The notes beneath the pieces are model-generated. The model made no database searches and was not told where the DNA came from. It saw nothing but the letters and a program-made list of their open reading frames with translations. Below are positions 1-62,213 of a stretch of DNA of 64,000 nt, piece by piece. The translations under genes were made by a program, and so were the position numbers. How positions within the stretch are numbered: the first letter of the stretch is position 1; each line of letters opens with the position of its first letter. Source of the stretch: Eutreptiella sp. 'Long Island Sound 2002' (Eukaryota; Euglenozoa; Euglenophyceae; Eutreptiales; Eutreptiaceae); NCBI GenBank assembly GCA_964036045.1, contig OZ038388.1, forward strand, positions 37,025,447 to 37,089,446, written 5' to 3'.

Positions 1-160
1 GTCCCCCCCCCCCCCAAGGGGGATGCCGCCAGGGTGTTTGTCCCCCCCCCCCGGGGATGCCGCCAGCGTGTTTGTCCCGTCATACCCCGCCCCCCGAGGA
101 TGCCGCCAGGGTGTTTGTCCCATCCTGCCCCCCCCCCCCCCGCAGCGTCTCCCATTGCCC
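1..160. repeat. Degenerate C-rich tandem repeat
   Basis: A unit of about 50 bp containing GGATGCCGCCAG and GTGTTTGTCCC followed by a run of C occurs three times, near 21, 55 and 108, with C tracts of variable length between copies. The ORF that crosses it is only repeat translation and I do not call it a gene. Confidence 0.7.
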
Positions 161-359
161 CCTTTGATGCCCCCCCTCCCCCCGGTTGATGCCGTAATAT
201 GCGCTGCAGCCCCCCCCCCCAGCCCTGGCACACACCTGTTTTCAGTCCCTGGTGGTAGGTGGCACATCCCCCTTGCACCCCCTGCCCACAACCACCAGTT
301 TGTGGCGGCCAACAATTGGAGGGCCCAGCCATCCACCCGACTGAGAGCCCACTGAGCCG

Positions 360-462
360 TTTGGCGCGCTCACTGAGCGCTCAGTGAGCGCTCACTGCGC
401 CGTTTCGCGCGCTCATTGAGCGCTCAGTGAGCTCTCACTGAGCTCTCAGTTACCTCTCAGTC
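360..462. repeat. 11-bp palindromic array (GAGCGCTC family), outer copy 1
   Basis: Units CGCTCACTGAG and the reverse-complement form CGCTCAGTGAG alternate head to tail with an exact 11-bp period near 367-400, then become less regular. The same array type recurs at about 1585-1715 and 11086-11222, on both sides of the oxygenase pseudogene. It occupies positions that the GAAATTCGTAC arrays take in the inner transposon. Confidence 0.75.
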
Positions 463-539
463 ACTGCACACCAAAAGACAGGCACTGCACAGGCACCACA
501 CAAAAGGCCAATACTTTCTTCAAAGGGACCGTTTGCAGT

Positions 540-905
540 CTGAACATACCGCAGGGGCAAGACGGGACTCCCCTGCTCTTGTACGTGCCCATAACAGGGC
601 TGAAAGAGGTGGCCCCTGGCCTGCTTGAAAAAAAAACCAAAAAAAGGGCGCAACATACCACAGGGGCCAGAGTCGGCCCTGGTCTTGAACACAGGCCCAC
701 AACAGGGCTGAAAGTGGTGGCCACTGGCCTGTGTGAAAAAAAGCCGCACATCAGAGCTGAAAGTGGTGGCCCTTGGCCGCCTAGAAAAATTTTCAGCTCT
801 GTGGATATTTTCAAAGTAACATACAACTGCAATTGGTACACGGCCAGAATCACGGCGCGTTTACCTGTGAAACAAAAGCACACAGCAGGGCAGAAAGTGG
901 TGGCA
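540..905. repeat. Degenerate tandem repeat with GGCTGAAAGTGGTGGCC core
   Basis: The core (A/G)GGCTGAAAG(A/T)GGTGGCC appears at about 597, 706, 757 and, in a diverged form, 886, with A-rich spacers. ORFs on both strands here are translations of the repeat. I see no gene. Confidence 0.6.
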
Positions 906-959
906 TAGGAAGTGCACAGCACGCTGCAATCTGTGGCCCCAGCCCCCCCAGAAGAAATT

Positions 960-1577
960 TCAGCACCATGAAGTGCTCAACAACAATATATACCATACAT
1001 ATATACGAACCACGTAGGTGGAGTGCCGCGGTACCCCCTTCATGTTCACCGTCCTGTTGAGGAGGTACGCTGGTGCGGGCTGCTTGTTGACCGGGGCAAT
1101 GTAGAGCCCCAAGTAGCCCGCGCGTACATCACTGGCCCGGGGTGGCTGCACCGGGGGGAAAGGGACCGGGGACCCGATGGCCAGGTCGGCGAGTGATGGG
1201 CCCACCGGCCCCCGACCCTTGTCAACCGCCGCTGCCCTCTCGCCCGCGGTTGTCACCATCGCGGGCTCCGCTCCCAATGCCATCGGCACCGGCTCCTTCG
1301 TCGCCGACACCAATTGCAGTTGCCGTCGCGTTGCCAGTAGCGGTGGTCGTGAGGAGCTGCTGGCACCTTCGGTGGGCAGCGCGAACGTTACCGGGCGCGA
1401 ACGTTGACTCTGTGTTTTGCTGCCGTTTGCATCAACTAAAGGCTCGTGCAGGGGGAATTGAGCCTGCAAATGTAGGGGGGGGGGGGGGCTCCAAAAGTAA
1501 CAGTTTCGATAAAGATGCAAACAGCAGCAAAGCACAGAGTCAACGTTCGCGCCCGGTAACGTTCGCGCCGCCCTCAC
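960..1577 (-). pseudogene. Possible second-exon remnant of the outer oxygenase gene
   Basis: A minus-strand open frame of about 200 codons lies just beyond the array that follows the oxygenase pseudogene. This is the position where the intact inner gene has its second exon. A stretch near its middle (DLAIGSPV then PPRASDV) weakly resembles the inner exon-2 stretch (LAARQPDP then PGPDGRQ). The similarity is too weak to be sure. Its 5' part is a 60-bp inverted repeat rather than coding sequence. Alternatively the whole frame is an artefact of GC bias. Confidence 0.25.
1374..1573. repeat. 60-bp inverted repeat (hairpin) around an 80-bp centre
   Basis: The 60 bases at 1374-1433 are the reverse complement of 1514-1573 with about three mismatches. 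Each arm contains GCGCGAACGTT twice. The centre holds a long G run. It could be a miniature foldback element inserted into the outer oxygenase locus. Confidence 0.8.
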
Positions 1578-1584
1578 TAAGAGC

Positions 1585-1715
1585 TCACTGAGCCGTCAGT
1601 GAGAGCTAATTGGGCTCACTGAGCCATTTGGCGCGCTCAGTGAGCGCGCCAAATGGCGCAGTGAGCGCTCAGTGAGCGCGCCAAATGGCTCAGTGAGCGC
1701 TCACTGAGCGCACCA
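1585..1715. repeat. 11-bp palindromic array, outer copy 2
   Basis: Repeated CTCACTGAGCG and CTCAGTGAGCG units are interrupted by the palindromic spacer GCGCGCCAAATGGC, which also occurs near 360, 1620 and 11125. The array lies between the 3' part of the oxygenase pseudogene and the possible second exon. That matches the intronic array of the inner element. Confidence 0.75.
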
Positions 1716-1902
1716 GACGGCCCAGTCAGGTCTCACTTGCACCTCCACTGGCAACTGCAACTGGCGGCAGGATGCTGGAGCCGCCTGAGCACAGCCCCAT
1801 GCAGGCCACACGGAGGGCCCGTACAGGCCCCCATACAGGCCCCATAAAGGCCAGCAGCAGACTGGCACGGCCTGTGCAAGAGGCCCACGCGCTGGCCACC
1901 TT

Positions 1903-2001
1903 GTGCACATGTTAAGCCCACTCGTGGGGCACCCTGTGCACATGTTAAGCCCGCTCGTGGGGCACCCTGTGCACATGTTAAGCCCGCTGGTGGGGCATTG
2001 C
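1903..2001. repeat. Three tandem 33-bp units
   Basis: Units starting at 1903, 1936 and 1969 begin GTGCACATGTTAAGCCC. They are multiples of three, so on the minus strand they give an 11-residue repeat inside the open frame that continues from the oxygenase pseudogene. Confidence 0.85.
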
Positions 2002-3499
2002 ACGCATAACACACAGAGAACCCCCTGCCAGCCCACAGGCCCACAGGCCCACAGCCCCAGACCCACCTTTCCAAACACCCTGGTGCACCCCACCACCACC
2101 CAGTCGCGCCCCCTACCAATATTCCCCCCAACACCCCGGTGTGAATCCTGCAAGGCAGGGGGAGAAGGGAGTAACACCTTGCCGCTGCAGATGCAGCGCA
2201 TCAAAAGCGGGACCTCGGCGCCCGCATCGCTCCTTGTACACCACTTCTCCGGCCCGCGATGCCACGAGAAGCCGAGCAGCAAAGCCTGCTGTGCGGAGAT
2301 GGGGCGGGAGGAGGGCGCCCAATACTGCTGCAGCATGGCGGCCTCCCCGGGTCCACTGTTACCCAGGTCGAGCCATGAGAGCCCGCTTGTCCACAGGACG
2401 TCGCCTTCCATCACGTACACGTGGCACATGGGGTCGGCGGCGTCCAGGGCAGGCCTAGCCAGCAGCAGCGGGTGGTATGGGCAGCCGGGGCCTGACGGGC
2501 CCACGGGGGCCAGCCAGTCGTCCAGCTACTCAAACCGCGGCAGACCGACCGCGCCCTGCAGTCCCTCGCCGAAGGCGAAGTACTGCCCCCAGTGGCTGAT
2601 AGCCCTGGCGTTGGGCAGCGGCCCGTCTCCCCGTGGACGCGAAGCCAGCTCATCCTTGGCCCCTGGCAGAGGGTCAAGGATGAACCGCTCCACGTCCACC
2701 AACTTGTGACGCTCGTCGGGGGTGAGGAAGCGGAAGAGAACGACCTGCTTCCCCACCCCCGGCAGCGCGGCAAGACCCCGATGTCTCAGCGTGGAGGCAA
2801 CGAGAAACATGTCCCCACGCTGAAACTCGAAGGTCTCGACCCGCAGAGCGTCATGGTCACCCAGGTGGCTGCCCAAGTGCACCTCCAAATGATACTTGTC
2901 CGAGAGGACAAGCATCATTGAGAGATGCCCGGGCAGCTCACCCATGCTAGGGAGCGTATGTGGCAACTTATCAACGTCAGTATGCCAGGTCTGCTCCCTA
3001 GCATCTTCCCCGGCGGCAATTGTCGACCACTGCGTTGGGAAGAGATCCCTCATCTCGGGCCAGCGAGCTCTGCACTGCTGACTAGCCCGTTGCAAGGGGT
3101 CCCTTCCCAACACAGAGATAAGCTTGCCGGGCCGAGTACCCCAGCGCCGCGGCAGTTTGGGATCAGCCAAGCACTCCTCGCGAGAGTGTGCATTGGACAG
3201 CAGATCCCAAATTGCATCCGGCTGGGTGCCGCAGGAGTCGACGAGAATGCGGTACCAGTTCTCGCACTCCTTGGCCTCTACCGCCCCCCTAACCACCCGG
3301 AGCCCCAAGCCCACAAGGATTCATCCGACTCAAGGTCATGAGCCGGGAGTTCATGTGAGAACACCGGGGCAGCCAGGGAGATGTAGGGGGGAGGAGAGGC
3401 GGCACCGCGGAGGAACACGGGCTCCTTGGTCCTGTATAGGGCTGGGGTGGTGTAGTCGGGCACATGGCACCACTCAGGAATGATGGGACAAGCCGAAAG

Positions 3500-3501
3500 G
3501 C
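3500..3501. other. Left copy of 2-bp target duplication (GC)
   Basis: GC precedes the left end TGTACCC, and GC follows the right end GGGTACA at 10479-10480. Removing the element and one GC joins the minus-strand codons GAA AGC to CTT TCG, restoring an uninterrupted frame that aligns with the intact homologue (WWES-LSA against WWDD-LGV). Confidence 0.75.
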
Positions 3502-3530
3502 TGTACCCTTCGTGAACCGGCCGTTTGAAT
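3502..3530 (+). repeat. Left terminal inverted repeat
   Basis: It starts TGTACCCTTCGTGAAC and continues GGCCGTTTGAAT after one C. It pairs with 10440-10478. The right end carries an extra 11 bp that duplicates GGCCGTT within it. Confidence 0.85.
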
Positions 3531-3875
3531 CCGAGATTCACGGTACCGTGAATTTCACCCAATTTTGCTGTGTTTTGCTCGTAACTTGGTGCTATCGTGT
3601 GCTTTTGTCGTGCTACCTTCGCCCAAAGTAAGATGCTACAAATAGGTGCAATTTAGAGGTTTAAAGTCCCCGCATGGTTTAACAGATTTGGTGAGATTCA
3701 CGTGAATGTGAGATTCACGCACCTAAATTCACGCAGAAATTCACGCTAGATTCACAGATTCACAGTATGTGAAATTCGTACGAAATTCGTACGAAATTCG
3801 TACGAATTTCGTACGAATTTCGTACGAATTTACCCTCATTTCCACTGTTTCGCTTTCCCACAGCTCTCAAACTCT
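3531..3875 (+). promoter_or_regulatory. Subterminal region and presumed promoter of the oxygenase gene
   Basis: About 345 bp lie between the left end and the first ATG. They hold several scattered GATTCACG/AATTCACG motifs (3690-3765) and the first GAAATTCGTAC array. No TATA box is obvious. Similar AATTCACG motifs lie just inside the right end (10415-10437), as expected of subterminal transposase sites. Confidence 0.5.
3771..3831. repeat. 11-bp palindromic array 1 (GAAATTCGTAC)
   Basis: Three GAAATTCGTAC units run head to tail into reverse-complement units (GAATTTCGTAC), making a 61-bp near-perfect dyad with an 11-bp period. It lies 50 bp before the oxygenase start codon. Confidence 0.95.
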
Positions 3876-3881
3876 TTGACA

Positions 3882-5801
3882 ATGTCGCAGCAGACTATGT
3901 CGCAGCTCGCCAGCCTGGCCTCGCGCCCCGACCCCGCAGCCGACACCCTCGCCCACTACCAAGCCCTCCCCGTTGCCCACCATCAATTGGAGGAGGCAAC
4001 GTACGAGTCGGAGGCACTGGGGGTGGATGCCATCGTGGGCTGGGCAGCCTCCCTCGACCCCTCCCCCGATGTCATCCACATCGACATGCGCAGCCCCACC
4101 CGCAACAGCTACCTCGGGGGGAGGGGATGGGCCACAACCCTGTGGAGGGAACTGCGCCACCAACTCCCCACCCTCAAATTTCTCCATCTGACCCCTCTCC
4201 CCTCCAGTGTTGACCAGCTCCTCAACTCGATGAGGAATAACCCTGTGGGGAAGCCTAAGGACGCCCACGTCCAGGTGTACCCCACCACTAACCTCGTCCA
4301 CACCCCCCCCCACTGCGATATGGTGTGCCTGCAGGATCTTGCTGCAGGTGCACCAGCAGGCCACTCTTTTTTCCCCTTTTCTTGGCATCTTGCCAACCCG
4401 CGGTGGTGGGATGATTTGGGCGTCGCCCCGTTCCATCCCACCATCCCCCCCCAGGTGCACGTCCCCGACGTCACCCACCCCACCTTCTACAGCACAACTT
4501 CTTTGCAATGGTACCGTGGTGCCTCATGCGCCCCCCCCTTCATTTCGAGTGAACCCCCCCTCCGCACCGAACCCCTTCCCGACCCCCCTCATGGGGTGAC
4601 GGGCAGCCCTGACCCCGCCCCCGACAGGGTTGGCCCCTCTCAGCCGCCCCTCAACTTTGTTGATGGGAACGGCTACATTGTGCTTCGGGGGCTTGTGGAG
4701 GAACGGGATTGTGAGGTGGGGTGGAACAAGGTGATGAAGGCGTGGGGCAGCGGCGACGAAAAAGTCGTCGCAAAAAATTTTGAGCTCCTTTTCAACGCCG
4801 CGCGGAGTGAGGAGCAGGCCAAGGATCCCGAGCTCCCCCGCCGGTGGCAAAGCAAGAGCGCCTTGGGGTCGGGGGTGGGGGGGCCTCTCTTCAAGAAGTT
4901 CCACCCCCACCTCACCGAAAGTGTCCCTGGGGTTGAGGACCTCCACCCAATGACGCCGGGCAGCGTCATTGTGGCCAGTGTGGGGAGTGGGCCGCAGCTC
5001 CCCCACACCGACGTGACCACCCACCCCGAAGTCCTCCCCCCCAGCGACAAGGCGGTGGGGGACTGCCACCTGAGTAGCTTCCTCTGCTTGTCAGAGGACT
5101 ACCAGGTGGCGTTGCAGGCGGGGACGGCCCTGGGGGAGGCGGCGGAGGCGCGCTGGGACACCGTTCAGCTGCATCGGGGGGACATGCTGCTGATGGTGGC
5201 CACCAGCCGCCATCATGGATTGCCTGCCCACCCTGACTCCAAGGATGGGCTGCAGGGGGCTCTTTTTAACTTGTGGACCCCCGACCCCCGACACAAACAC
5301 CACCAGGCCAACACCACACACTTGGACGCCATCCCCCCCAAGGAGGCCCTGGACGTTGCTGGGGATTTGTCCAGCTGGGACCTCCCCAGCGTGGACCAGG
5401 TGTTGTGGGTGGGGAAGGGGGCGGTTGCGAGGGTGGGGTTGTGGGAGGGGGAGGCTGCCCAGGCCCTGTTCGCCGACCCCCCGCAGACGCTCCCGGCAGG
5501 CCCCCCCACCTGCCCCTTCCACCCCACCTTCATCTCCCGGTCGGCCCCGGCCGCCGACCTCGCCGTCATGGAGGTCGGCCCCCAGTGCATGCTGTTCTTC
5601 CTGGGCAGCGTGCACCAGCTGGAGGTCGTGAAGGGGGGCGATGTCGACGCGGAGTCGGAGATCCACTTCGCCTTGTCCGGCATTGCCCCCCCGGGTCGGC
5701 CGACCACGCTGTGGCACCTGGTGAACACGGTCCCAGCGTGGCGGTCGCCCAAGTGCGCGAGGACCGGGGCATGGAGCATCACCTGCCCATGCGACTGCAA
5801 G
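3882..5801 (+). CDS. 2OG-Fe(II) dioxygenase-like protein, exon 1
   Basis: The ATG at 3882 (MSQQTMSQ) gives 640 codons to a splice donor AAG|GTGTGC at 5801/5802. Residues 1-230 form a domain of unknown function shared with the broken minus-strand copy (VIHIDMRS, RWWDDLGV, HVPDVTHPTFY). Residues about 265-480 look like a double-stranded beta-helix oxygenase: H375-T-D377, RGDMLLMVATS, distal H444 in SRHHG and R470 in PDPRHK. All of these motifs are conserved in the diverged copy, so they are under constraint. The His-Arg spacing of 26 is longer than usual. A third conserved region follows (CPFHPTFISRSA, MLFFLGSVHQLEV). Known transposon-borne 2OG enzymes include TET/JBP DNA-base oxidases in fungi and algae; whether this one belongs there is inference. 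The true catalytic activity is unproven. Confidence 0.7.
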
Positions 5802-5847
5802 GTGTGCCTGCTTGTGTGTTTGCTTTGTGTATTTGCAACAATTGGAC

Positions 5848-5928
5848 GAAATTCACGTGAAATTCGTACGAAATTCGTACGAAATTCGTACGAATTTCGT
5901 ACGAATTTCGTACGAATTTCACGTGAAT
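5848..5928. repeat. 11-bp palindromic array 2a
   Basis: It has the same GAAATTCGTAC units as array 1, three in each orientation, and is capped on both sides by ATTCACGTGA. It lies inside the intron. Confidence 0.95.
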
Positions 5929-5953
5929 AAATTTGTGTGAATTTTCTCGAGAT

Positions 5954-6008
5954 GTGAAATTCGTACGAAATTCGTACGAATTTCGTACGAATTTCTGTGA
6001 ATTTCGTC
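5954..6008. repeat. 11-bp palindromic array 2b
   Basis: A shorter dyad with two GAAATTCGTAC units and two inverted units follows array 2a after about 25 bp, still within the intron. Confidence 0.9.
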
Positions 6009-6097
6009 CAATTTGCTCCTTTTGCTCTTCCATTGCCCCGTGTCCACTCCCCCTTTCTCAATTTTTGCCTTGCACACCTCCCCACATCTGCATGCAG

Positions 6098-6643
6098 GTC
6101 CCGTTCACCGCTTGGTCGCCGGATATTCGGCACCACACCAGGCGCCAGTACAAGCCCCGGCCCCGATTGCCTGAGGAGCACGCCGAGCCCGCCGAAGGCC
6201 CCGGTGGCGCCCAGCCCGCAGGCACCGGCGGTGGACGGGCACCAAGCGAGGCCGGCAGCGTGCGCAGTGTGGGGTCGCAGCGCTCTCGGCGTTCGGGAGG
6301 CAGCGAGGCCAGCACCGCCAGGGGGCATATGGCGCGCGAGGTGGTGGTGCCCCAGCCGTCCCGCGACGAGCTGGGCGAGGCCCACACCGACCCCCCCCTG
6401 GACCGGGTCACCCTGGCCGCCAGGCAGCCGGATCCGGCCTGGACCCAGCAGGTGCCGCCCGGGCCGGATGGGCGGCAGCGGCACCTCAGTGCCGTGTGGG
6501 ACATGGAGTTGGAGTCGCGGGGGGTGCAGGGCACCCTCCGCATCTCCTTCCCCTGCCCCATTGTGCTCCGGGGGGGGTCCAACCTGCCTGCGGGGCAGGA
6601 GCTGGTGGGCATGTTTGCCTACCGGCTTGTGAGTGGGCACTAG
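6098..6643 (+). CDS. 2OG-Fe(II) dioxygenase-like protein, exon 2
   Basis: The acceptor at 6097 opens 181 codons ending in TAG at 6641-6643, for a spliced protein of 821 residues. The exon encodes a basic, Arg/Ser-rich stretch (RSVGSQRSRRSGGSEAS) and then a folded-looking segment (LSAVWDMELESRG, TLRISFPCPIVL, ELVGMFAYRL). I recognise no domain. The frame stays open past the TAG into the coiled-coil ORF, so the two could be one protein by readthrough, or one gene broken by a recent stop. Confidence 0.55.
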   Translation, partial: VPFTAWSPDIRHHTRRQYKPRPRLPEEHAEPAEGPGGAQPAGTGGGRAPSEAGSVRSVGSQRSRRSGGSEASTARGHMAREVVVPQPSRDELGEAHTDPPLDRVTLAARQPDPAWTQQVPPGPDGRQRHLSAVWDMELESRGVQGTLRISFPCPIVLRGGSNLPAGQELVGMFAYRLVSGH

Positions 6644-6682
6644 CGGGTGCAGACGGGGGTGTCGGGGATCGGGGAGGGGGGG

Positions 6683-7636
6683 ATGGTGACGACGGCAGGG
6701 ATTTGTGGGCTGAATGTGCTCACGGGTTGGGAGCAGCGGAGGCCGGAGTGGGTGGACGTGGCATGGGTTGCCATGCGCGTCCATGTGGGGAGGCAGCGGA
6801 AGATGGGGGTGGTGGCTGACGTCATTGACGTCGAGGAGGACGAACCCCCCCCCACGCGCAAGCGGAAAGGGCGCCCCGAAGGGGACACGGGCCCCACCCC
6901 CCCCCCCAAAGCCCCGCGTACGGCCACCCCGGGGGAGCGGGCAGGGCGGGCGGAGCAGGCGGAGCCGTCGGGGGGGCGGGGGCAGAGGGGGGTGGTGCAG
7001 GAGTGGGTGGACCAGCAGCGGGCGGGGGCGTGGGAGGCACGCGCCATCAGCGCGGAGGCCGCCAACCGCGACCTCGAGGCCCGTCTGCGGGACTGCGAGT
7101 CGCGGTTGGCGGACGTCACCAGGGAGCGTGACCGGCTGGCCACCAAGGTGAAGACCCTGGAGCGTGACGTGGCGACGTTGCGCAAGGCAAAGCCAGCGGC
7201 ACAGCCAGCAGAGGCAGTGGAGAGGGCTGAGGGTGCCGAGGCCCCCGCCCCCCCGGGTGACAGGGGGGGGGCCAGTGCTGCCGGTGTCCGGTACCTCCTG
7301 GCCGGCGCACAGGCCTGGCATGCCCAGGCCGAGGCATGCGCCGGCCAGATGTCCGCAGTGTCCACCGGCCTGCGGATGGCCATGATGGCCAGTGGCCAGC
7401 AGGTCAATGTGGACAGCGTGGCCCCGGACGCCCCCAAGGTGACTGCCGCAATGGAGGAAGTGCGCCGGCAGTACCCCCCCCACCGCCTCACGTCGGCGGC
7501 CATGGACCCCTCCTTTGTGGAGGCGGTGGCGGAGCAGAGCTCCCAGGGCTCCGCTAGCCGGAGCTCTGCTCCCGGGGGGGGGGGGGTGCGTAGGTACCCT
7601 CCGGAGCACCTGTCCTTTCTAACCACGCCTTTCTAA
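6683..7636 (+). CDS. Coiled-coil nuclear-type protein of the transposon
   Basis: The ATG at 6683 is in the same frame as exon 2 and follows its TAG by 39 bases; the ORF has 317 codons. It has a bipartite-like nuclear signal (PPPTRKRKGRPEG, about residues 53-65). Then comes an acidic/basic heptad region ending RERDRLATKVKTLERDV, which looks like a coiled coil. An Ala-rich helical region and a C-terminal segment (EEVRRQYPPHRLTSAAMD) follow. It may be a DNA-binding or dimerising accessory factor of transposition, or the C-terminus of the oxygenase protein read through the TAG. No family is recognised. Confidence 0.5.
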   Translation: MVTTAGICGLNVLTGWEQRRPEWVDVAWVAMRVHVGRQRKMGVVADVIDVEEDEPPPTRKRKGRPEGDTGPTPPPKAPRTATPGERAGRAEQAEPSGGRGQRGVVQEWVDQQRAGAWEARAISAEAANRDLEARLRDCESRLADVTRERDRLATKVKTLERDVATLRKAKPAAQPAEAVERAEGAEAPAPPGDRGGASAAGVRYLLAGAQAWHAQAEACAGQMSAVSTGLRMAMMASGQQVNVDSVAPDAPKVTAAMEEVRRQYPPHRLTSAAMDPSFVEAVAEQSSQGSASRSSAPGGGGVRRYPPEHLSFLTTPF

Positions 7637-8252
7637 CCACGACGAATGTTATCCTGCCCCCCCCCCCCCAAGCATGGGCAGTTTGACCGATATGTGGGGT
7701 ACTCCCCCCCCACTGTGCGAAATTTTCTGCAGCACTGTTTGTACATTACCCCCTGACCTGATGTGCCCCCTGACCTGTTAACCTGTTAACCTGTTAATTT
7801 GCGATTCCTTTCTGCGGAACTGTTTGTATATTACACTGCTGGCTGAGTGACAGCCGGAATGACAGCATGAGACAATGACAATGACAATGACAGCATGAGC
7901 ACCATCCTGAGCTTGCTTTGTGAGGGTCAACGAGGGCACAAGGATGAGGCTTTGGCAGAAATTCTGTGACAGTCATGTGAAATTCGCACGAAATTCGTAC
8001 GAAATTCACAGAAATTCGTACGAATTTCGTACGAATTTCACATTTTCAGAATATTCACACATTTCTATTCATGTGAAATTCGTACGAAATTCGTACGAAA
8101 TTCGTACGAATTTCGTACGAATTTCGTGCGAATCTATGTGAATTTCTTTTAATTGCATGCGAATCACAGTAGAGAGAGTGGTCTGCGGCAGGGGGATGGT
8201 AGAAACTTTGCGATGACGGCCTGCCCATTCAACAGGTCCTGTATCTCACATC
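7637..8252 (+). promoter_or_regulatory. Intergenic region before the transposase gene
   Basis: It holds a C-rich tract, an ATGACA microrepeat (7860-7895) and palindromic arrays 3a and 3b within 280 bp of the transposase ATG. I see no coding sequence. It probably contains the 3' end of the upstream transcript and the transposase promoter. Confidence 0.5.
7978..8134. repeat. 11-bp palindromic arrays 3a and 3b
   Basis: Two dyads lie at about 7978-8042 and 8072-8134, separated by a short AT-rich spacer. Both use GAAATTCGTAC and its inverse; 3a has a few variant units (GAAATTCGCAC, GAAATTCACA). They lie 118-275 bp upstream of the transposase start. Confidence 0.9.
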
Positions 8253-10016
8253 ATGCCACGGCCCAAGGAGCCATTGCATCTGGTAGCGGATCGTACACGA
8301 CGGCGGCGCGTACAAGAGCTCCAGGAGGTTGTTTCCAAGGAGCTTGCAGCACCCTACACCGTCAAGTACCTGCCCGACACGGGGCAAATAGTGCTTACCC
8401 CCGAAACAAGAATTGTAGCCACCGTCCAGCCCGAGCCCACCCAGGAGGAGAGGTTGATTATGGCCGTGTGGAGGATCCGGTCATTGCACCTCTCTAGGAC
8501 AGAGTCCCGGTACCTGGTGGGGAGCATGACGTACGGTGTGGTATGGGACCAGGTGTACGGCATGCTCCGGCAGCTAGCGTTGCCGGAGTCCCGGGCGTTT
8601 ACTGCCTATACGGGTGACGACACGGCCATCAATGGTGCGGCCTGCTACCTACCTGACCGCATCGCCCACCTATTCAAGTGTCGACCACCACCACCCTCGG
8701 CCATCATGCAGCCCGGGGACCGACGGCTGCATTGGTTGCCTATTGCGGTGGACGGTACATCGAGGCATGAGGCCTCGTACGTCCATTGCACGCTTGGTGG
8801 CACCGCCAGCCCCAACCAACTATCTAGTTGGTGGCTACTAGGGGGCAGTGAAAAGTGGGACACCCGCTACGCGGCCTCCCAGGAAATTGATTTTGATGAT
8901 GAGTTGCGCAAGGCCGCAACCGTAAGTTTTAAGGATACGGCAGGGAACGATAGGCAGTCCCTTTTTTTTCTGTGTGCAGATGGTAAGGCACAGGTGCTCA
9001 TGGCGGGCTGCCAAAACTGGAAGGCAGAATCCCCTGGTGCCACTGTGTGTTGGGTCTGCATGCGTAACCGTGCTCTGTGCCTTGCTACCTTTGGCACAGC
9101 AAGTGCGATAGACGGCAACTGGGAACCAGCCGTTGCCATAAGTGCTATATATAGGACCATTATGAGTGATAGGCGAGTGCCTGATTATGGCCTCCATGGG
9201 GTCCTTCGTGTCCTGTTGTGTGCAGTCAACGGGACACGGGACCTAGTTGTACAATTGACGGGGAAGGCACCGGCCACTGTGGCACGCACCATGCTGCAAC
9301 CGGTTTTAGATGAGGCACGGCTTGCTGCACGAACTTGCACCCGTGCCTCATTAAATAATGACAAGGCAAACAGCAAGGGGAAGGTGAGGATGGAGTGTGC
9401 TGCTGCCATCCATTTCATGCGCAATAAGGGTTGGGAGAAGATAATAGATGCTTGCCTAGAGCAGCCTAGTGTCAGGCAGCATCAAGTAGGGGGAAAAAGT
9501 TGGGAGTCGGTGTGCAAAACGTGGTGGGAGAATTTTGCAAGCATGTGTGTATACGCGTGGCGTTCCGCATGGTTCTCCGGGGCCGACTTGGGGCGGCTCC
9601 GGAACCATAGCATAGCCATGGGCGCTGCCCACAATGAGCTCCAGTGGGGCAAACTTCTGTGGACGCATCTTTGGATCGACCACATGTATTATTTTGCAAA
9701 GAAGTGGAGAATCTTGTCAAAGTTCTCCTGCTTTGCCATGGAGGGAAGTCACCGGAGGCTGAAGCGCATGTTGCGCAACAGCGGGGGCCTAAGCCTCCTC
9801 CGGGGGAGACTAGGGGTGCAAGTGGTTGTGGACAACCACACCATTGACGATAGCCTTTGGTTGCATGGGTGGGATGCGACCAAAAGGGCTCAACATGGGC
9901 AAGGGCCCATAAGTGTACAAACGTATGCAAACCGCACAAGAAGACGGCTTCTAACCGACATGCAGCACCTTCAGACTCTACAGCGGCGGTTCCGGTGCCG
10001 CAAGAGACGGACATGA
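8253..10016 (+). CDS. DDE-type transposase-like protein, family unassigned
   Basis: The ATG at 8253 opens 587 codons to TGA with no stop or frameshift. The layout resembles large DDE transposases of the CACTA/Plavaka/Dada kind: a candidate first Asp D167 (PIAVDGTS), a second Asp D243 (FLCADGKAQV), and a following zinc-type CxxC at C266/C269 (VCWVC). Then H315 in LHGVLRVLL (compare the lH-x-LLG motif), a W-rich helical region and a candidate Glu E497 in FAMEGSHRRLKR. The C-terminus is very basic (RRFRCRKRRT). Catalytic assignments are by motif pattern only. The gene is the most intact coding sequence in the element and lies last before the right end. It probably excises and inserts the element in the nucleus. 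Confidence 0.65.
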   Translation: MPRPKEPLHLVADRTRRRRVQELQEVVSKELAAPYTVKYLPDTGQIVLTPETRIVATVQPEPTQEERLIMAVWRIRSLHLSRTESRYLVGSMTYGVVWDQVYGMLRQLALPESRAFTAYTGDDTAINGAACYLPDRIAHLFKCRPPPPSAIMQPGDRRLHWLPIAVDGTSRHEASYVHCTLGGTASPNQLSSWWLLGGSEKWDTRYAASQEIDFDDELRKAATVSFKDTAGNDRQSLFFLCADGKAQVLMAGCQNWKAESPGATVCWVCMRNRALCLATFGTASAIDGNWEPAVAISAIYRTIMSDRRVPDYGLHGVLRVLLCAVNGTRDLVVQLTGKAPATVARTMLQPVLDEARLAARTCTRASLNNDKANSKGKVRMECAAAIHFMRNKGWEKIIDACLEQPSVRQHQVGGKSWESVCKTWWENFASMCVYAWRSAWFSGADLGRLRNHSIAMGAAHNELQWGKLLWTHLWIDHMYYFAKKWRILSKFSCFAMEGSHRRLKRMLRNSGGLSLLRGRLGVQVVVDNHTIDDSLWLHGWDATKRAQHGQGPISVQTYANRTRRRLLTDMQHLQTLQRRFRCRKRRT

Positions 10017-10439
10017 GATGACCTTACGAACCCAGACCATTGTTGCCTGTGACCGGGGTGCATGCTGGGGGGCTTACTAGGGGTGTGAGGACAAATCAGG
10101 GGGTGCACACGGGTAACATTTGTGTAAATTCACGTGAATTCACGCGAATTCACGTGAAATTCGTACGAAATTCGTACGAAATTCGTACGAATTTCACGTG
10201 AATTCACGTGAATTCACGGCTGTGAATCGGCTACAGGCTTGCCGGGTTCCGGCACCTCTCGTTTTGGGCACGGTGCGGTCATGATGCATGCTTTTGGGGC
10301 GGGACTTTCATTGGATGATGCGTAACAAAGCTAGGGGAGGAATTTTGGCCCCTCAAAGCCCTTGAAGCGAACCAAGAATATGGCATTTTCCCCCAAAAAC
10401 CTCAAGTTTTGGGTAAATTCACGTGAAATTCACGCAATT
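10017..10439 (+). other. 3' region of the transposase and right subterminal region
   Basis: No gene. It contains array 4 (10122-10220), a presumed transposase 3' UTR, and AATTCACGTGAAATTCACGC at 10417-10436, just inside the right inverted repeat. Confidence 0.6.
10122..10220. repeat. 11-bp palindromic array 4
   Basis: A central GAAATTCGTAC dyad is flanked on both sides by repeated AATTCACGTG units. It follows the transposase stop by about 105 bp. Confidence 0.92.
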
Positions 10440-10478
10440 ATTCAAACGGCCACTTAACGGCCGTTCACGAAGGGTACA
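10440..10478 (-). repeat. Right terminal inverted repeat
   Basis: It ends GTTCACGAAGGGTACA, the inverse of the left end. It is longer than the left copy by an internal 11-bp duplication of the GGCCGTT segment. Confidence 0.85.
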
Positions 10479-10976
10479 GCTTTCCCACCATTCCCCTGAC
10501 ACCACCCCGACCCCGACAGGCAGGGGCTCAAGGAGTCCCTTCTTGGGTGCCACGTGGCTGACAACAAGATCTGCAGTCCAACCGTGTTGGAGATCTTTGG
10601 TGTCATGAACTCGTGTCCCAAACTCGTGGGGGATACCGATCAGCTTTCTTGAGGACTGCTGCACCGAATCTTGGACAGCAGCCACAGGAAAGCGGAAGCG
10701 TACGGCACGAAGAGCTGGATGCACGTGGCGCAACATTTGGTTGCACCGGTGCATCCAGCTCTTTCCAAGAAGGGTCACATCGGACACGTTGATGTGGACC
10801 ACTTCGGGGGAAGGGGCAGGGAGCTGCTCGGCCCACAGCTTCAAGGGCTCTAGGTCCGTCGAAGGCACCCCCGGGTACGCTGCCTCTGTGAAAGCGGTAG
10901 GTACCCGGGGGCGACTAAGGAAAGACGCGAGAGCCTTTGAAGCTGCCGGTTCCAGGCCCGGGACGACATTAGACAT
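10479..10976 (-). pseudogene. 2OG-Fe(II) oxygenase-like gene, N-terminal part, split by insertion
   Basis: The ATG at 10976 (MSNVVPGLEP) opens 166 codons to the insertion point after WWES. The sequence matches the N-terminal domain of the transposon-borne oxygenase: EVVHINVSD against DVIHIDMRS, and GEWWES against NPRWWDD. The rest of the gene continues at 3499 and below on the same strand. The two genes are clearly diverged, so the insertion is not a recent duplication of itself. The 11-bp GAGCGCTC array lies about 110 bp upstream of the ATG. Confidence 0.8.
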
Positions 10977-11085
10977 GGTGTGAAAGAGAGGACCTATGGG
11001 AGCGAGAAGGAATGGATGGGTAGGCGGATAGGGGGGCGGAGGAGAGGCGGCAAGGGGGGGGAACCCTCTGAGTAAGCCCCCAATT

Positions 11086-11222
11086 AGCTCTCACTGAGCG
11101 CTCGCTGAGCGCTCACTGAGCCATTTGGCGCGCTCACTGAGCGCTCACTAAGCGCTCAGTGAGCCGGCTCAGTGACGGCTCAGTGACGGCTCAGTCGGGC
11201 GCTCAGTCAACTGAGCCGTCGC
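11086..11222. repeat. 11-bp palindromic array, outer copy 3
   Basis: Repeated CTCACTGAGCG, CTCAGTGAGCC and CTCAGTGACGG units with a GCCATTTGGCGCGC spacer. It sits upstream of the minus-strand oxygenase pseudogene, the same relative place as array 1 in the inner element. Confidence 0.75.
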
Positions 11223-11397
11223 CAAAAAAAGTACCCCGCCCCCCTTGAACCTTGACCAAGTGAGTATCTAAAACTTCTAAAAACATTAAATGCACATTAC
11301 CTAGCATGCAAAACGCACAACAAACAAGCACAAAGACATCGCAATGCACAACTGAGCCCCAAATGAGCTTCAACTTCACGTTTCCACTTAGCCACCA

Positions 11398-11763
11398 GTG
11401 AGCCGCAGGTGCAGGGGAGTGCGCCACTGCTGTCAGCGGGGACACCATAAAGTGTGCACCCCAGTGCCTATGCGCCGGAAGCGCCCTCTTACTACACAGC
11501 CAGAACTGCCAAACAAACGACCATGCCTACAAGGGCCTGTACGTATCTCTTCGGGTCTGCTGAGGTCCCCACACCAACCCACCAACCCTCCAGCCCCCAA
11601 ACGCAAGAGGCCGAAAACACCCCCCCCCTCCGTCCCCACCAGCCCCAGTTCCACGGGGGCTGGAGGAGACCGTGGCCGAGGATGTTGCCCGCCCGCTTTT
11701 CGTGACGAGGCAAGGGAGAGCAAATACTCTGGATACCTAGCCAGCAAAACACAGAGGTTTTGA
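11398..11763 (+). CDS. Weak ORF with nuclear-signal-like motifs
   Basis: An open frame of 121 codons without a strong start has basic patches MRRKRPL and PKRKRPKTPP and Pro/Ser-rich sequence. It could be the 5' exon of a lost nuclear protein. No family is recognised, and the opposite strand is also open. Confidence 0.2.
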   Translation: MSRRCRGVRHCCQRGHHKVCTPVPMRRKRPLTTQPELPNKRPCLQGPVRISSGLLRSPHQPTNPPAPKRKRPKTPPPSVPTSPSSTGAGGDRGRGCCPPAFRDEARESKYSGYLASKTQRF

Positions 11764-11870
11764 TTCCGCAGAAGGGAGGGAAACAACGTCACAAAGAGGC
11801 CTCGGCAGACCTGAGCCAAATGAGGCGTCCAGCCCAACGCTGCACAAGGATCCACCTCTAAAGGTACAGA

Positions 11871-11918
<48 letters not shown>
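11871..11918. repeat. (CA)n microsatellite
   Basis: About 24 uninterrupted CA units followed by TATA. Confidence 0.98.
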
Positions 11919-11921
<3 letters not shown>

Positions 11922-12079
11922 GGGGTTGGAATGCACGTGCGAAAGTGTGGCCATAGCAACTTGGGGTGGTGGCCCCATACCATACGCCATCAGGGTACAT
12001 CACCCCTCCCCGCGTACACCGGTGTATGGACTTATGTGGAGGCCACCACAATCTCCGACCAACCACTTCCGTCTTACCT

Positions 12080-53800: not shown

Positions 53801-54513
53801 CACGCTGGCAGTAGTAGTGGCTGAACTTGTTGCAGTATCAGTAGCGGTAGTAGCAGCAGTAGTAGTACTGGTTGAAGTAGCGGACCGACTGGACGTTGAC
53901 CCAAAAAAAGGGTTTGGGCGGGCTTGGCGGACACACAGTTCACAAATAATCTTCAGCACAATCAGAATGCTTCTGTCGAAGGGTACAACGATCCGACTCG
54001 GCCAAAGAGAAAAAAGCAACAGTTTCAGCATTCTTGGAGTGGCATACATTACAAGGCATAGTCTGGTCAAGAGCATAGGGGAGGGCAGGAAAAAGAGACA
54101 AATGGGTGCCTAATATTGCCTATTTCTGTGCTATGGTTCTGAGAACCCACTGTACAGGCCACTGTTCGGGGCTGTACGGGAAATACGGGATTCCCGTACG
54201 GGGGGGGGGGGGGGTTGTCCATGTCTGCACCATTTTTCGCACTTAAACCCACGGACACAGGCAAAGTGTTTGCACTGCGTGTGCACTGCGTGCGCACTGC
54301 GTGGGCACTGCGTGCGCACTGCGTGCACATTGCAGTGAAACCCACCCCATGCCACCTCTGTATAACACTGCAAAGCAACAAAGCCAACAGGACACACATT
54401 GAACCACTACCAACCCGGTACTTTGATGTACTTGTGAACATCTCATTTAGTGATGTAGAGTACCACTATGCAGTTGCAACCACTGTAACCCTTGTAAGCG
54501 CCATCGTGATTAA
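50801..54513. other. Gene-free repeat-rich region
   Basis: Includes a member of the CTCAAGGGCCCACACCAAAGTGTGG repeat family (52555-52640), GCGCCTTTTCTGGCGCTTTT repeats (53660-53715), a TAGTAGCAGCAG microsatellite (53820-53880) and CACTGCGTGCG repeats (54270-54330). No ORF is convincing. Confidence 0.5.
54270..54335. repeat. CACTGCGTGCG tandem repeat
   Basis: Units of 11-12 bp (GCACTGCGTGC/GGGC) repeated about six times. A second short array occurs at 54945-54990, also followed by gene-free sequence. Confidence 0.85.
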
Positions 54514-54798: not shown

Positions 54799-55859
54799 CT
54801 ACAACGAGGAACATGCAAAAAAAAGGGGGGGTGAAAATGGGTACAAATGGGTGAAAATAGGTGATAATGAATGACAATTCAAATTTGTCATATCCTGAAT
54901 GCATAAGAAGCTTAAAAAGTAGTTACCGACATACAAAACTTTGTACTGCGTGCGCACTGCGTGGGCACTGCGTGCGCACTGCGTGCATGGCATTCCCACA
55001 GGCTCAAAATCAGCCACGAGATGTATTGGCTGTCCTGGGCACTTCTTTGGAGTGCCTTGAGAGCTGCTGTGAGGTCAGCTTTGGTAATTGATTGTCCTTC
55101 ATGGACCGGCATGGGGGTCTGCTCATTTTGGGGATTCCCTTCCCCGAACCATCCGTACCCCGCAAATTCGGCTCCTCCTTGTTCATCTCTGGAACCGTCA
55201 CCAAATGCAATGTCCTACAGCCCTCTGCTGCCTTGGATTACAAAATGCTAAGCATGCTGGGCAGCATATGGGCCCACTTTTCTTGTTTTTGGGGGGGTAC
55301 CGGGCATGCACGGTACTCTCACCCCTTTGGAACGCACCACCCCTTGAGGCTGTTGCACTGGAAACATCTACTGAAACCTACCGAAACCGCTCCAACCAGG
55401 CACAGAGGTGCAGCGCCTCTGCCCTGATAAACGAAGTTTGTACGAAGTTTGCGGAGCCGACATCCAGCTCTCTACAATGACCTGCTGCGCAGTCACAAAA
55501 CCTGGAAGAGATGGTCTGGCTGATCGAAATTTCGCATCACAGTGTAGCACCCATGAGGCCCGAGCCGCCACCCACAATGGGTGTGTTGTTGCACGGTGCA
55601 CGTACAGTTCAATCTTTTTGGAATGTTCACCCAACTTTTACCCCGTTGAATGGCCCCCACAGAACCACACCCAGGGTCCCAATTTCTGCACCTTGCAGCT
55701 CTTGCTGGTATACCAGGAGTTTCTAATTTTTAGTCCGATGCTTGTCACAGGTCCCAGGGTCCCAATTTCTCCACCTTGCAGCTCTTGTGTGGGGGTTGAT
55801 CTTCTAGTTGGGGGTGCTGGGGGCTTTCAGCATCCACTGCTGGTTTGGGGGGCTCTACC

Positions 55860-60520: not shown

Positions 60521-61270
60521 GGTGCATGGGCATATCGGGTTGACCCCCGACCCCAATTTCAGCTCACACGGTATACCGGTGGGGTGTCGGGGCGCCCCTT
60601 GGCCCAGGATCAACTCCGAGGGGGTGTCGGGGCCTCCCCTGCCCCCAAAAACAAACTAGAGGGAACTGGCGAATGAAAACGGGCCAACGGGGGGCTGGGG
60701 GGCTTTGTACATGTTCTAGCCGACTAACCGATGGAGAAGGGTGGTGGCGGCGGTATGGTGGTGTGGTGGTGCAGAAAACAGTGTGTACCGGATGGCCATG
60801 CAGCAGCGGCAGCGTGTGAGGTGTATGCCGCAGTGCTACGGGGAGAAAGCAAGGGCCAAGGCTGTGAGGAGGACAACCACACGTACGTGGCTAACGAACC
60901 TGCAGCTTGGTCGCTCAGCCTGTGCGGGGGTGGGTATACCTGAAGGAGCTGGCCAATCAGTGCAGGTAAGAGTCAAGGGTAGGTGTCCCAGCATGGTACA
61001 TGGGCCAAATGCGTGGTACCTAGTATCCACAGCATGGGCAAGCCTCTGGTTGGTACAGTCATAGGGGGAATGTTTGCCCGGCGCGCGCCCGGCGCGCGCC
61101 CGGCGCGCTACTTTTGTATTAACTATCCCGACTTCAGCCCCAGATTTACCCTCCCATGGAGAAGCCCCCCAAGTAGACCACGTTGCACTGCACACCTTCC
61201 CTACAAAGCACGTTGCAAAATAAAGCAATATCTGTGACTTCAACCACTCCAAATGTCATTTGTGTTGCAC

Positions 61271-61750
61271 TTAACAAACAACATTGGTCCCACAAGTGTG
61301 GGTGTCAATACATTCATTACAATAGTGCTCCTTACACTCATCACAAACTGCGACGGTGGAGCGCCTTTGGCAACACAAAACACACACTTCCGCCTCATCC
61401 TCTGCCTCATCTTGGAGGAGGAGATATTCCAAAATCTCATCCTCTGTCTTTTTGTTCTCCCTCGCAACCTCTTCCGCTGTGTACTCTCTTTCCGTGGAGG
61501 GTTCCACAGGGTTGGGCTGGGGCTTGGGTTTGCCTTTCGCGGACTTAGATTTGCGTTGAGGTTTGGGTTGGGGTTTGGGTTGAGGGTTGGGTTGAGGTTT
61601 GGGTTCAGGTTTGGGTTGAGGTTTGGGTTGAGGTTTGGGTTGAGGTTTGGGTTGAGGTTTGGGCTGGGCTTCAAGATTGGAACTTGAGCTAGAACTAGAA
61701 CTTGAGCTAGAACTAGAAGCTGAATTGGAGGCAAACAACAACACAAGCAA
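61271..61750 (-). CDS. (QPKP)n protein with B-box-like zinc finger, partial
   Basis: About 160 codons with no ATG; a TGA lies just upstream in frame, so a 5' exon is missing or the copy is broken. It starts with a hydrophobic [10 protein letters not shown] and a Ser run, followed by ten or so (Q/E)PKPQPNP repeats encoded by CAACCCAAACCT units. Then [12 protein letters not shown], an acidic helix ([17 protein letters not shown]) and [20 protein letters not shown], continuing [11 protein letters not shown]. The Cys/His spacing (C-x2-C, C-x2-C-x4-C-x2-C-x3-H-x-C) is B-box-like. Its place inside a TIR element suggests gene capture. Confidence 0.45.
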
Positions 61751-61756
61751 CAAAGC

Positions 61757-62096
61757 GTGGATTCAAAGATTGTCCCGGTTTCCTCAATAGCACCGGACGG
61801 TTGGGGCCCAAAAGAGGGCGGAAATGCTACATCACCCCTGCATTCTCGGGGGTCCCCAACAAAGGGAACAAAATCGGAAGTCAAAACCTACGCCGGGGGT
61901 CACCATGATGCACCACGCAACGAAGCGTGGATTCAAAGATTGTCCCGGTTTCCTCAATAGCACCGGACGGTTGGGGCCCAAAAGAGGGCGGAAATGCTAC
62001 ATCACCCCTGCATTCTCGGGGGTCCCCAACAAAGGGAACAAAATCGGAAGTCAAAACCTACGCCGGGGGTCACCATGATGCAGCACGCAACGAAGC
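61757..62096. repeat. Two tandem 170-bp units
   Basis: 61757-61926 and 61927-62096 are almost identical (GATTCAAAGATTGTCCCGG to the ACGAAGCGTG end). Part of the unit (GGGCGGAAATGCTAC, CGGGGGTCCCCAACAAAGG) is shared with 47030-47110, so it belongs to a dispersed family. Confidence 0.95.
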
Positions 62097-62213
62097 GTGG
62101 ATTCAAAGATTGTCCTAAGTGCGCCCCTTAGCGCACCCCCTAAAAGGTCACCGGTGGGGCACGGGTCCAAAAAGATGCCCGGCGCGCGCCCGGCGCGCTA
62201 ACGTTCCCCCATA

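Follow-up and report, generated by a model that had tools for sequence, protein, structure and literature searches.

Palindromic arrays of 11-bp units, one unit per family, in two nested DNA transposons of Eutreptiella

Two nested elements and their arrays

We have analyzed a stretch of 64,000 nucleotides from Eutreptiella sp. 'Long Island Sound 2002' (assembly GCA_964036045.1, contig OZ038388.1, positions 37,025,447 to 37,089,446; hereafter the window), in which a complete DNA transposon, the inner element, is nested in an outer element of like kind. Both carry an oxygenase-like gene (gene 1), a transposase and, at several places, arrays of palindromic units with a period of 11 bp (Table 1). 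The outer element runs on into L051, the 9-kb stretch upstream of the window; its ends are TGTACCTGCGGCTCACTT at L051:6645 and TGCACCTGCGGCTCACT at window position 11413, one of them reading TGCACC, with GG on either side. That the two elements are related, as the original prediction made from the sequence alone had supposed, is borne out by identities of 30–36% between their oxygenase-like genes (44% over a short piece) and of 36% between their transposases.

Both elements have their arrays at four corresponding places. One precedes gene 1, one lies inside gene 1 or directly behind it, and the other two flank the transposase on its upstream and downstream sides, with the limit that the second of the four is a predicted intron in the inner element and a site 3' of an exon, with no intron established, in the outer one. 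Every position at which an array had been predicted does hold one. However, the arrays in the intron and before the transposase of the inner element are double and not single, and the third outer array, placed simply "further on", turned out to lie upstream of the off-window outer transposase, beyond which there is a fourth. The inner unit is CGTACG followed by AA[A/T]TT (AAATT or AATTT), and the outer unit, built on the same plan, is GAGCGCTC followed by A[C/G]T (ACT or AGT). Each is an odd palindrome with one free centre base, and the two sequences are unrelated, so that the predicted combination of equal period, symmetry and places with different sequence is supported. The outer arrays do have the 11-bp period but are less regular than the inner ones, with a GCCATTTGGCG unit interspersed and the region 1633–1737 reported as period 32 by Tandem Repeats Finder (TRF). 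The terminal arrays of the outer element are inverted copies of one another over 165 bp (88%). None of the 50 matches to the inner unit core, on either strand, fell within the predicted coding exons, which cover 5223 of the 6977 bp of the inner element.

A mechanical lag scan of window positions 1–12000 gave nine lag-11 arrays, all nine with a palindrome score of at least 0.70, and 100 dinucleotide shuffles of the same region gave none. When the scan was extended to the window, L051 and 60 kb out of six arbitrary places, the lag-11 arrays amounted to 17, and the eight that scored at least 0.75 were all inside the inner or outer element. At other lags this score was reached once at lag 10 (on the flank of an inner array) and once at lag 12 (in L056), and by no array at lags 8, 9 and 13–16. 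The outcome is sensitive to the threshold, three outer-element arrays scoring just 0.65–0.73. Outside both elements there were five lag-11 arrays in the window (0.47–0.72) and one in L055 (0.58), so that a period of 11 bp as such also occurs elsewhere than in the elements.

Table 1. Features of the inner and outer elements (window coordinates unless L051 is given).
Feature	Position	Strand	Remarks
Outer element	1-11413, on to L051:6645	-	~6.8 kb without insert; ends TG[T/C]ACCTGCGGCTCACT; duplication GG/GG
Outer array upstream of oxygenase-like gene	11086-11222	.	
Outer oxygenase-like gene, 5' part	10419-10976	-	30% identity to inner N-terminus
Outer oxygenase-like gene, 3' part	2526-3320	-	HxD conserved; 36% identity to inner
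Outer array 3' of oxygenase-like exon	1585-1740	.	
Outer array upstream of outer transposase	350-464	.	
Outer transposase	L051:7057-8738	-	off window; degenerate in this copy; 36% identical to inner transposase
Fourth outer array	L051:6865-6996	.	beyond outer transposase
Inner element	3502-10478	+	6977 bp; terminal inverted repeat TGTACCCTTCGTGAAC..., TGTACC...GGTACA; 2-bp target duplication GC/GC
Inner array A	3767-3834	.	upstream of gene 1; hairpin z -10
Inner gene 1 exon 1 (predicted)	3882-5801	+	oxygenase-like, HxD conserved
Inner gene 1 intron (predicted GT-AG)	5802-6097	+	296 bp, frame kept across
Inner array B1	5848-5928	.	in predicted intron; hairpin z -14
Inner array B2	5952-5996	.	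in predicted intron
Inner gene 1 exon 2	6098-7636	+	coiled coil (weak, sub-cut-off Pfam matches)
Inner array C1	7978-8042	.	upstream of transposase
Inner array C2	8066-8136	.	upstream of transposase
Inner transposase	8253-10016	+	587 aa, D-D-CxxC-H4H-E motif
Inner array D	10127-10220	.	downstream of transposase, TTCACGTGAA units on its flanks

In most inner arrays the free centre base runs A...A T...T with a single flip, so that the whole array is a dyad and folds as a long hairpin. Over 97 arrays round the inner transposase, from thirty loci (see below), the centre-base steps were 170 AA, 82 AT, 62 TT and 0 TA (T to A in 0 of 314), and the single A-to-T flip was present in 82 of the arrays. 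The eight arrays tested, from both families, all fold as long hairpins with z between -6 and -14 against shuffles. These properties would fit a structural, single-strand role, with the arrays forming long RNA or DNA hairpins that serve as terminators, as insulators or as sources of small RNAs. We regard this as very unlikely since inverted arms would suffice for it, with no need for an 11-bp period of palindromic units or for one unit at four places; moreover, 15 of the 97 arrays have no flip, and at 17 loci round other array sites T-to-A steps were 10 of 70, with A and T in mixed order. Rfam and tRNA scans were empty.

Some other features of the region were recorded. The outer array 3' of the oxygenase-like exon is adjoined by a 200-bp insert with 60-bp inverted ends of 95% identity (1374–1573), and an open frame at L051:253-1128 resembles, by eye, a reverse transcriptase fragment. 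Among the arrays outside both elements, two that repeat a third sequence, GCACTGCGTGC, every 11 bp lie about 600 bp apart at 54266–54333 and 54942–54988 (score 0.60–0.66), and a GCCCGGCGCGC array of the same period is found at 61071–61113 (0.72). A 170-bp tandem repeat (2.2 copies, 98%) occupies 61747–62115.

Copies of the elements and turnover of their arrays

Both families are abundant and look young in the 2.28 Gb assembly (of which C1, C3 and C11 are individual sequences). We found GAAATTCGTACGAATTTC at 2699 places and GAGCGCTCACTGAGCGCTC at 795 + 775, and the same letters read backwards at none. The inner transposase gave 74 scored places among 8559 candidates, with identities of 98–100% and without a stop in 67 of them. 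The first exon of the outer transposase gave 150 scored places among 2994 candidates, 46 of them 97% identical, free of stops and open over 610 aa. Sixteen inner copies elsewhere were tried for their ends; the left end was found in nine, and all nine had a matching 2-bp duplication of varied sequence. The window copy of gene 1 carries an in-frame stop in exon 2 (6641–6643) that is absent from three other sampled copies.

To see what surrounds the inner unit we looked at 19 distinct sites on C1, of which four headed the list and 15, mostly isolated, were chosen by hand. All 19 are in transposons, and 16 of them in the inner family, i.e., 13 copies, relatives or end fragments and three small elements (~0.7–0.8 kb) with the family ends, of which two show a 2-bp duplication by eye and one (L065) shows none. 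The scatter unlinked to the family that would have told against the original prediction was thus not seen. The remaining three sites belong to another element, with inverted ends of 230–270 bp (~80% identity) built round the inner unit. This element with long inverted ends carries inner-unit arrays in L061, L066 and L058:4700-7100; the L058 copy is nested between both inner-family ends, and L066 has one end only. It is possibly a free-rider on a binding protein of the inner family.

For the outer unit we took the first 100 listed places, which cover C1 to 90.2 Mb, and joined them with cut-offs of 300 bp and 3.5 kb. They formed 62 arrays in 37 clusters: 24 singles, six pairs, two triples, five fours and none larger. 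The spacing within the clusters of four was approximately 2.5/2.6/2.5 kb (two clusters), 2.1/1.7/2.1 (two) and 2.4/2.3/2.5 (one). Over the same part of C1 an outer array was found within 2 kb of all six outer transposases with at least 90% identity. A third transposase family, like P0024, shares 59% identity with the inner transposase and gave 93 scored places among 6477; none of its six copies on that part of C1 had an outer unit within 5 kb. The exact inner unit was absent from the one copy of this family checked, and the GTGC variant of the inner unit was not present within 5 kb of any of the nine scored P0024-type copies on C1. On C3 seven P0024-like copies (92–93% to P0024, 613-aa open frames) lie within 0.8 Mb (G000:C3:170960985-171743634), perhaps a local burst of this third family. 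Among protein matches, peptides translated from inner-type arrays turned up in 14 of 141, by a design that is blind to other units.

The clearest picture of how the arrays change comes from the thirty best-scoring inner copies, which differ from their majority coding sequence by only 1–9 bases per 1761 (0.06–0.5%). The array region 5' of the transposase could be read in 26 of them, and in 22 it measured 181, 192, 203, 214 or 225 bp, i.e., it varied in steps of 11 bp, whole units having been gained or lost between near-identical copies. In three further loci (L020, L023 and L032) this region exceeds the commonest length by 119–494 bp and contains duplicated stretches, as if the arrays also promoted unequal exchange.

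This rapid shift in unit number is what would be expected from functionless tandem repeats growing by slippage at any place where selection permits it. Such neutral repeats would be kept out of the coding exons in any case, and the further lag-11 arrays of the window, up to the score of 0.72, are also in line with them. We nevertheless think this explanation improbable, as the period, the palindromic plan and the four places are kept by two unrelated sequences, the five other lag-11 arrays of the window (0.47–0.72) stay below the 0.75 reached by eight arrays of the elements, and shuffled sequence produced no arrays.

Encoded proteins and the docking-site interpretation

The class of the transposase was read by eye from a four-row alignment in which D167, D243, C266/C269 and E497 are invariant. 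The H4H motif is HLWIDH in the window, HLWVDH in P0036 and HMWIDH in P0046, and P0024 has R for the first H. The CACTA/Mirage/Chapaev (CMC) group is marked by a D-D-E transposase in which the second D and the E enclose C(2)C and H(3-4)H, and its pattern is given as D, D, CxxC, H4H, E in the part of PMC12730594 available to us; by this motif the inner transposase fits the group. The same text describes PlavakaA, fungal transposons with 2-bp duplications and TGT..ACA ends, and these were present in the window copy and in the nine inner copies with both ends. CACTA ends and the 3-bp duplication of CACTA/EnSpm were not. No transposase family in Pfam-A matched at E up to 10, and as no Pfam model fits the inner transposase we do not file it as a Plavaka member. 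With 14 sequences as input, AlphaFold gave a low-quality model of the transposase (mean pLDDT 46).

The label oxygenase-like for gene 1 derives from its HxD motif: among 14 aligned rows the D is present in all 14 and the H in 13 (x being T, S, N or F). In 2-oxoglutarate/Fe(II) oxygenases of the TET/JBP-like kind such a motif belongs to the HxD...H metal site, carried by a double-stranded beta-helix. A PDB row, a 42-residue glycoprotein with E = 1, was taken as chance. Protein-database searches, in which 8000 candidates were scored per search, returned mostly close copies, probably from the same species; P0036 (44%) and P0046 (35%), on contigs of 2143 and 3013 bases, may come from elsewhere. 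Viral contigs were scanned as well, with no relative confirmed.

On balance, we favor the view that a dimeric DNA-binding protein encoded by the elements docks on the arrays, which would be its family-specific cis-acting sites. That period, symmetry and places agree while the sequences do not suggests that each family brought along a protein that reads sequence, because a purely structural or neutral cause would not be expected to settle on a single unit for all four places in one family and on a different unit for these places in the next. Support comes from the agreement in all four places between two families with unrelated units and just 36% identity between their transposases, and from the small elements and the element with long inverted ends, all of which carry the inner unit. 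Also in its favor are the absence of the inner unit core from the predicted coding exons, the outer clusters of no more than four arrays, the outer arrays close to the outer transposases of at least 90% identity and not to the P0024-type ones, the 11-bp steps in array length, the single A-to-T flip in 82 of 97 arrays and the CpG density of the arrays given below. Each 11-bp palindromic unit would suit a symmetric dimer, and with one unit about every helical turn several dimers could sit on the same face of the helix. Since one unit recurs towards either end, inside the intron and in the space between the genes, a single protein might label all the non-coding stretches of its family and none of those of the other family, and such marking would keep the family expressed or unsilenced, or assemble the transposition complex, or both. 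The binder would most likely be the gene 1 product, with its oxygenase-like domain and coiled coil, or the transposase. We take the gene 1 protein as the best candidate and the transposase as the second, because the former has a coiled coil for pairing in the inner family, and a conserved HxD motif.

A more specific version would give the arrays a role in demethylation. CpG density is 12–15 per 100 bp in the inner arrays and 7.6–10 in the outer ones, versus 4.6 in the rest of the window, and the observed/expected (o/e) ratios are 3.4–4.8 and 0.79–1.07, respectively. The window beyond 12 kb is depleted in CpG (o/e 0.64) with an excess of CA/TG (1.30/1.34), a pattern typical of CpG-methylating genomes. 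A transposon-encoded oxygenase could demethylate DNA at CpG-dense palindromic arrays, which would serve as family-specific addresses in a self-contained anti-silencing system, with other elements free-riding by copying them; we consider this a tentative proposal and an unlikely one. Shielding of the array CpGs from mutation was unsupported, 11 of the 16 substitutions outside position 10 being CpG transitions (335 units, non-independent).

Several observations weigh against the docking-site interpretation. One unit per family, with two families at hand, is no test of co-variation between array and protein. The inner coiled coil has no counterpart that we could find in the outer element (best E 0.67), which weakens the case for a coiled-coil protein as the common binder, and the oxygenase-like domain of gene 1 matched no known family in Pfam or PDB sequence-profile searches. 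The CpG density of the outer arrays follows from their high G+C content. Among the 26 upstream array regions the one in the window itself is 1 bp off the 11-bp step and three have larger duplications; L013 has lost the downstream core array though its transposase is open, and L020 is as short there. The flip is missing from 15 of the 97 arrays mentioned above, and 16 left-end loci of the inner family gave T-to-A in 2 of 52 steps. The 19 inner-unit sites, found by their arrays and picked by hand, say nothing on how often elements lack them. Finally, an exact array was found within 2 kb of none of the three older outer copies (76–87%) on C1 below 90.2 Mb, so that arrays decay or vary. The interpretation offered in the original prediction, repeated docking sites on one face of the helix for a transposase or accessory protein co-evolving with its array, is as a whole partly supported.

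Known systems and what the arrays may mean

VANDALs are a group of Mutator-like element (MULE) transposons. By position (introns, upstream regions and between genes), by gain and loss of units and by sharing with another element, the nearest functional model for the arrays would be the targets of VANC in the VANDALs of Arabidopsis. As described in the available parts of PMC5735166 and PMC10398659, these targets are tied to CG methylation, and their repeats, which change in concert, differ by gain or loss of units from copy to copy; such gain and loss is also what we see here. The VANC motif is shared with the unrelated element AT9TSD1, much as the inner unit is shared with the element with long inverted ends (PMC5735166, PMC10398659). 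A word search for "palindrom" in the available text of these two papers gave 0 uses, a fixed period not being searched for. Unlike VANDALs, the elements described here combine an oxygenase-like gene with a D-D-E transposase of the CxxC/H4H type and duplicate 2 bp of target; this duplication, like their ends and the transposase motif, agrees with a different group. Pfam families among the encoded proteins were limited to the weak coiled-coil matches, with no VANC relative sought by sequence.

By clade and by the terminal inverted arrays, the nearest model would rather be TnpA with the subterminal repeats of CACTA (En/Spm) elements, which belong by motif to the same broad transposase clade. There an element-encoded DNA-binding protein goes together with family-specific repeats capable of forming stem-loops (PMC2613891, in the part available), whereas in our elements the binder is predicted. 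This likeness raises the alternative that the arrays are transposition enhancers only, at which a TnpA-like protein would align the ends for cleavage, the internal arrays being by-products. The transposase motif, the PlavakaA-like ends within that clade, the mutually inverted outer terminal arrays and the presence of arrays in the small elements with inner-family ends are all consistent with it, as is the variation of soybean CACTA subterminal motifs by subfamily, where they are taken as TNPA-type binding sites (PMC2613891). However, the CACTA repeats are subterminal, and our arrays are found also in the predicted intron and between genes, at matching places, none of which end-joining needs. 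CACTA elements also have CACTA ends and a 3-bp duplication, instead of the TGTACC ends and 2-bp duplication found here (PMC2613891). We consider it possible, but not likely, that enhancement of transposition is the whole explanation. In the wider group to which PlavakaA belongs some fungal transposons carry a TET/JBP dioxygenase gene (PMC12730594), a parallel to the oxygenase-like gene here; the word "subterminal" had no use in the available text of that paper, and our elements had no Pfam match. A literature search on such arrays turned up no paper, which is not to claim that none exists.

If the docking-site interpretation is true, transposons outside the plant VANDAL group would have reached a similar answer, a private DNA code read by a protein of their own making. 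An 11-bp palindrome is a simple code, and this one is recent, occurs hundreds to thousands of times and comes in two unrelated versions, which makes a joint change of protein and site directly testable, with the small elements and the element with long inverted ends that carry the inner unit as natural controls. A link to the oxygenase-like gene would join address and eraser in one element.

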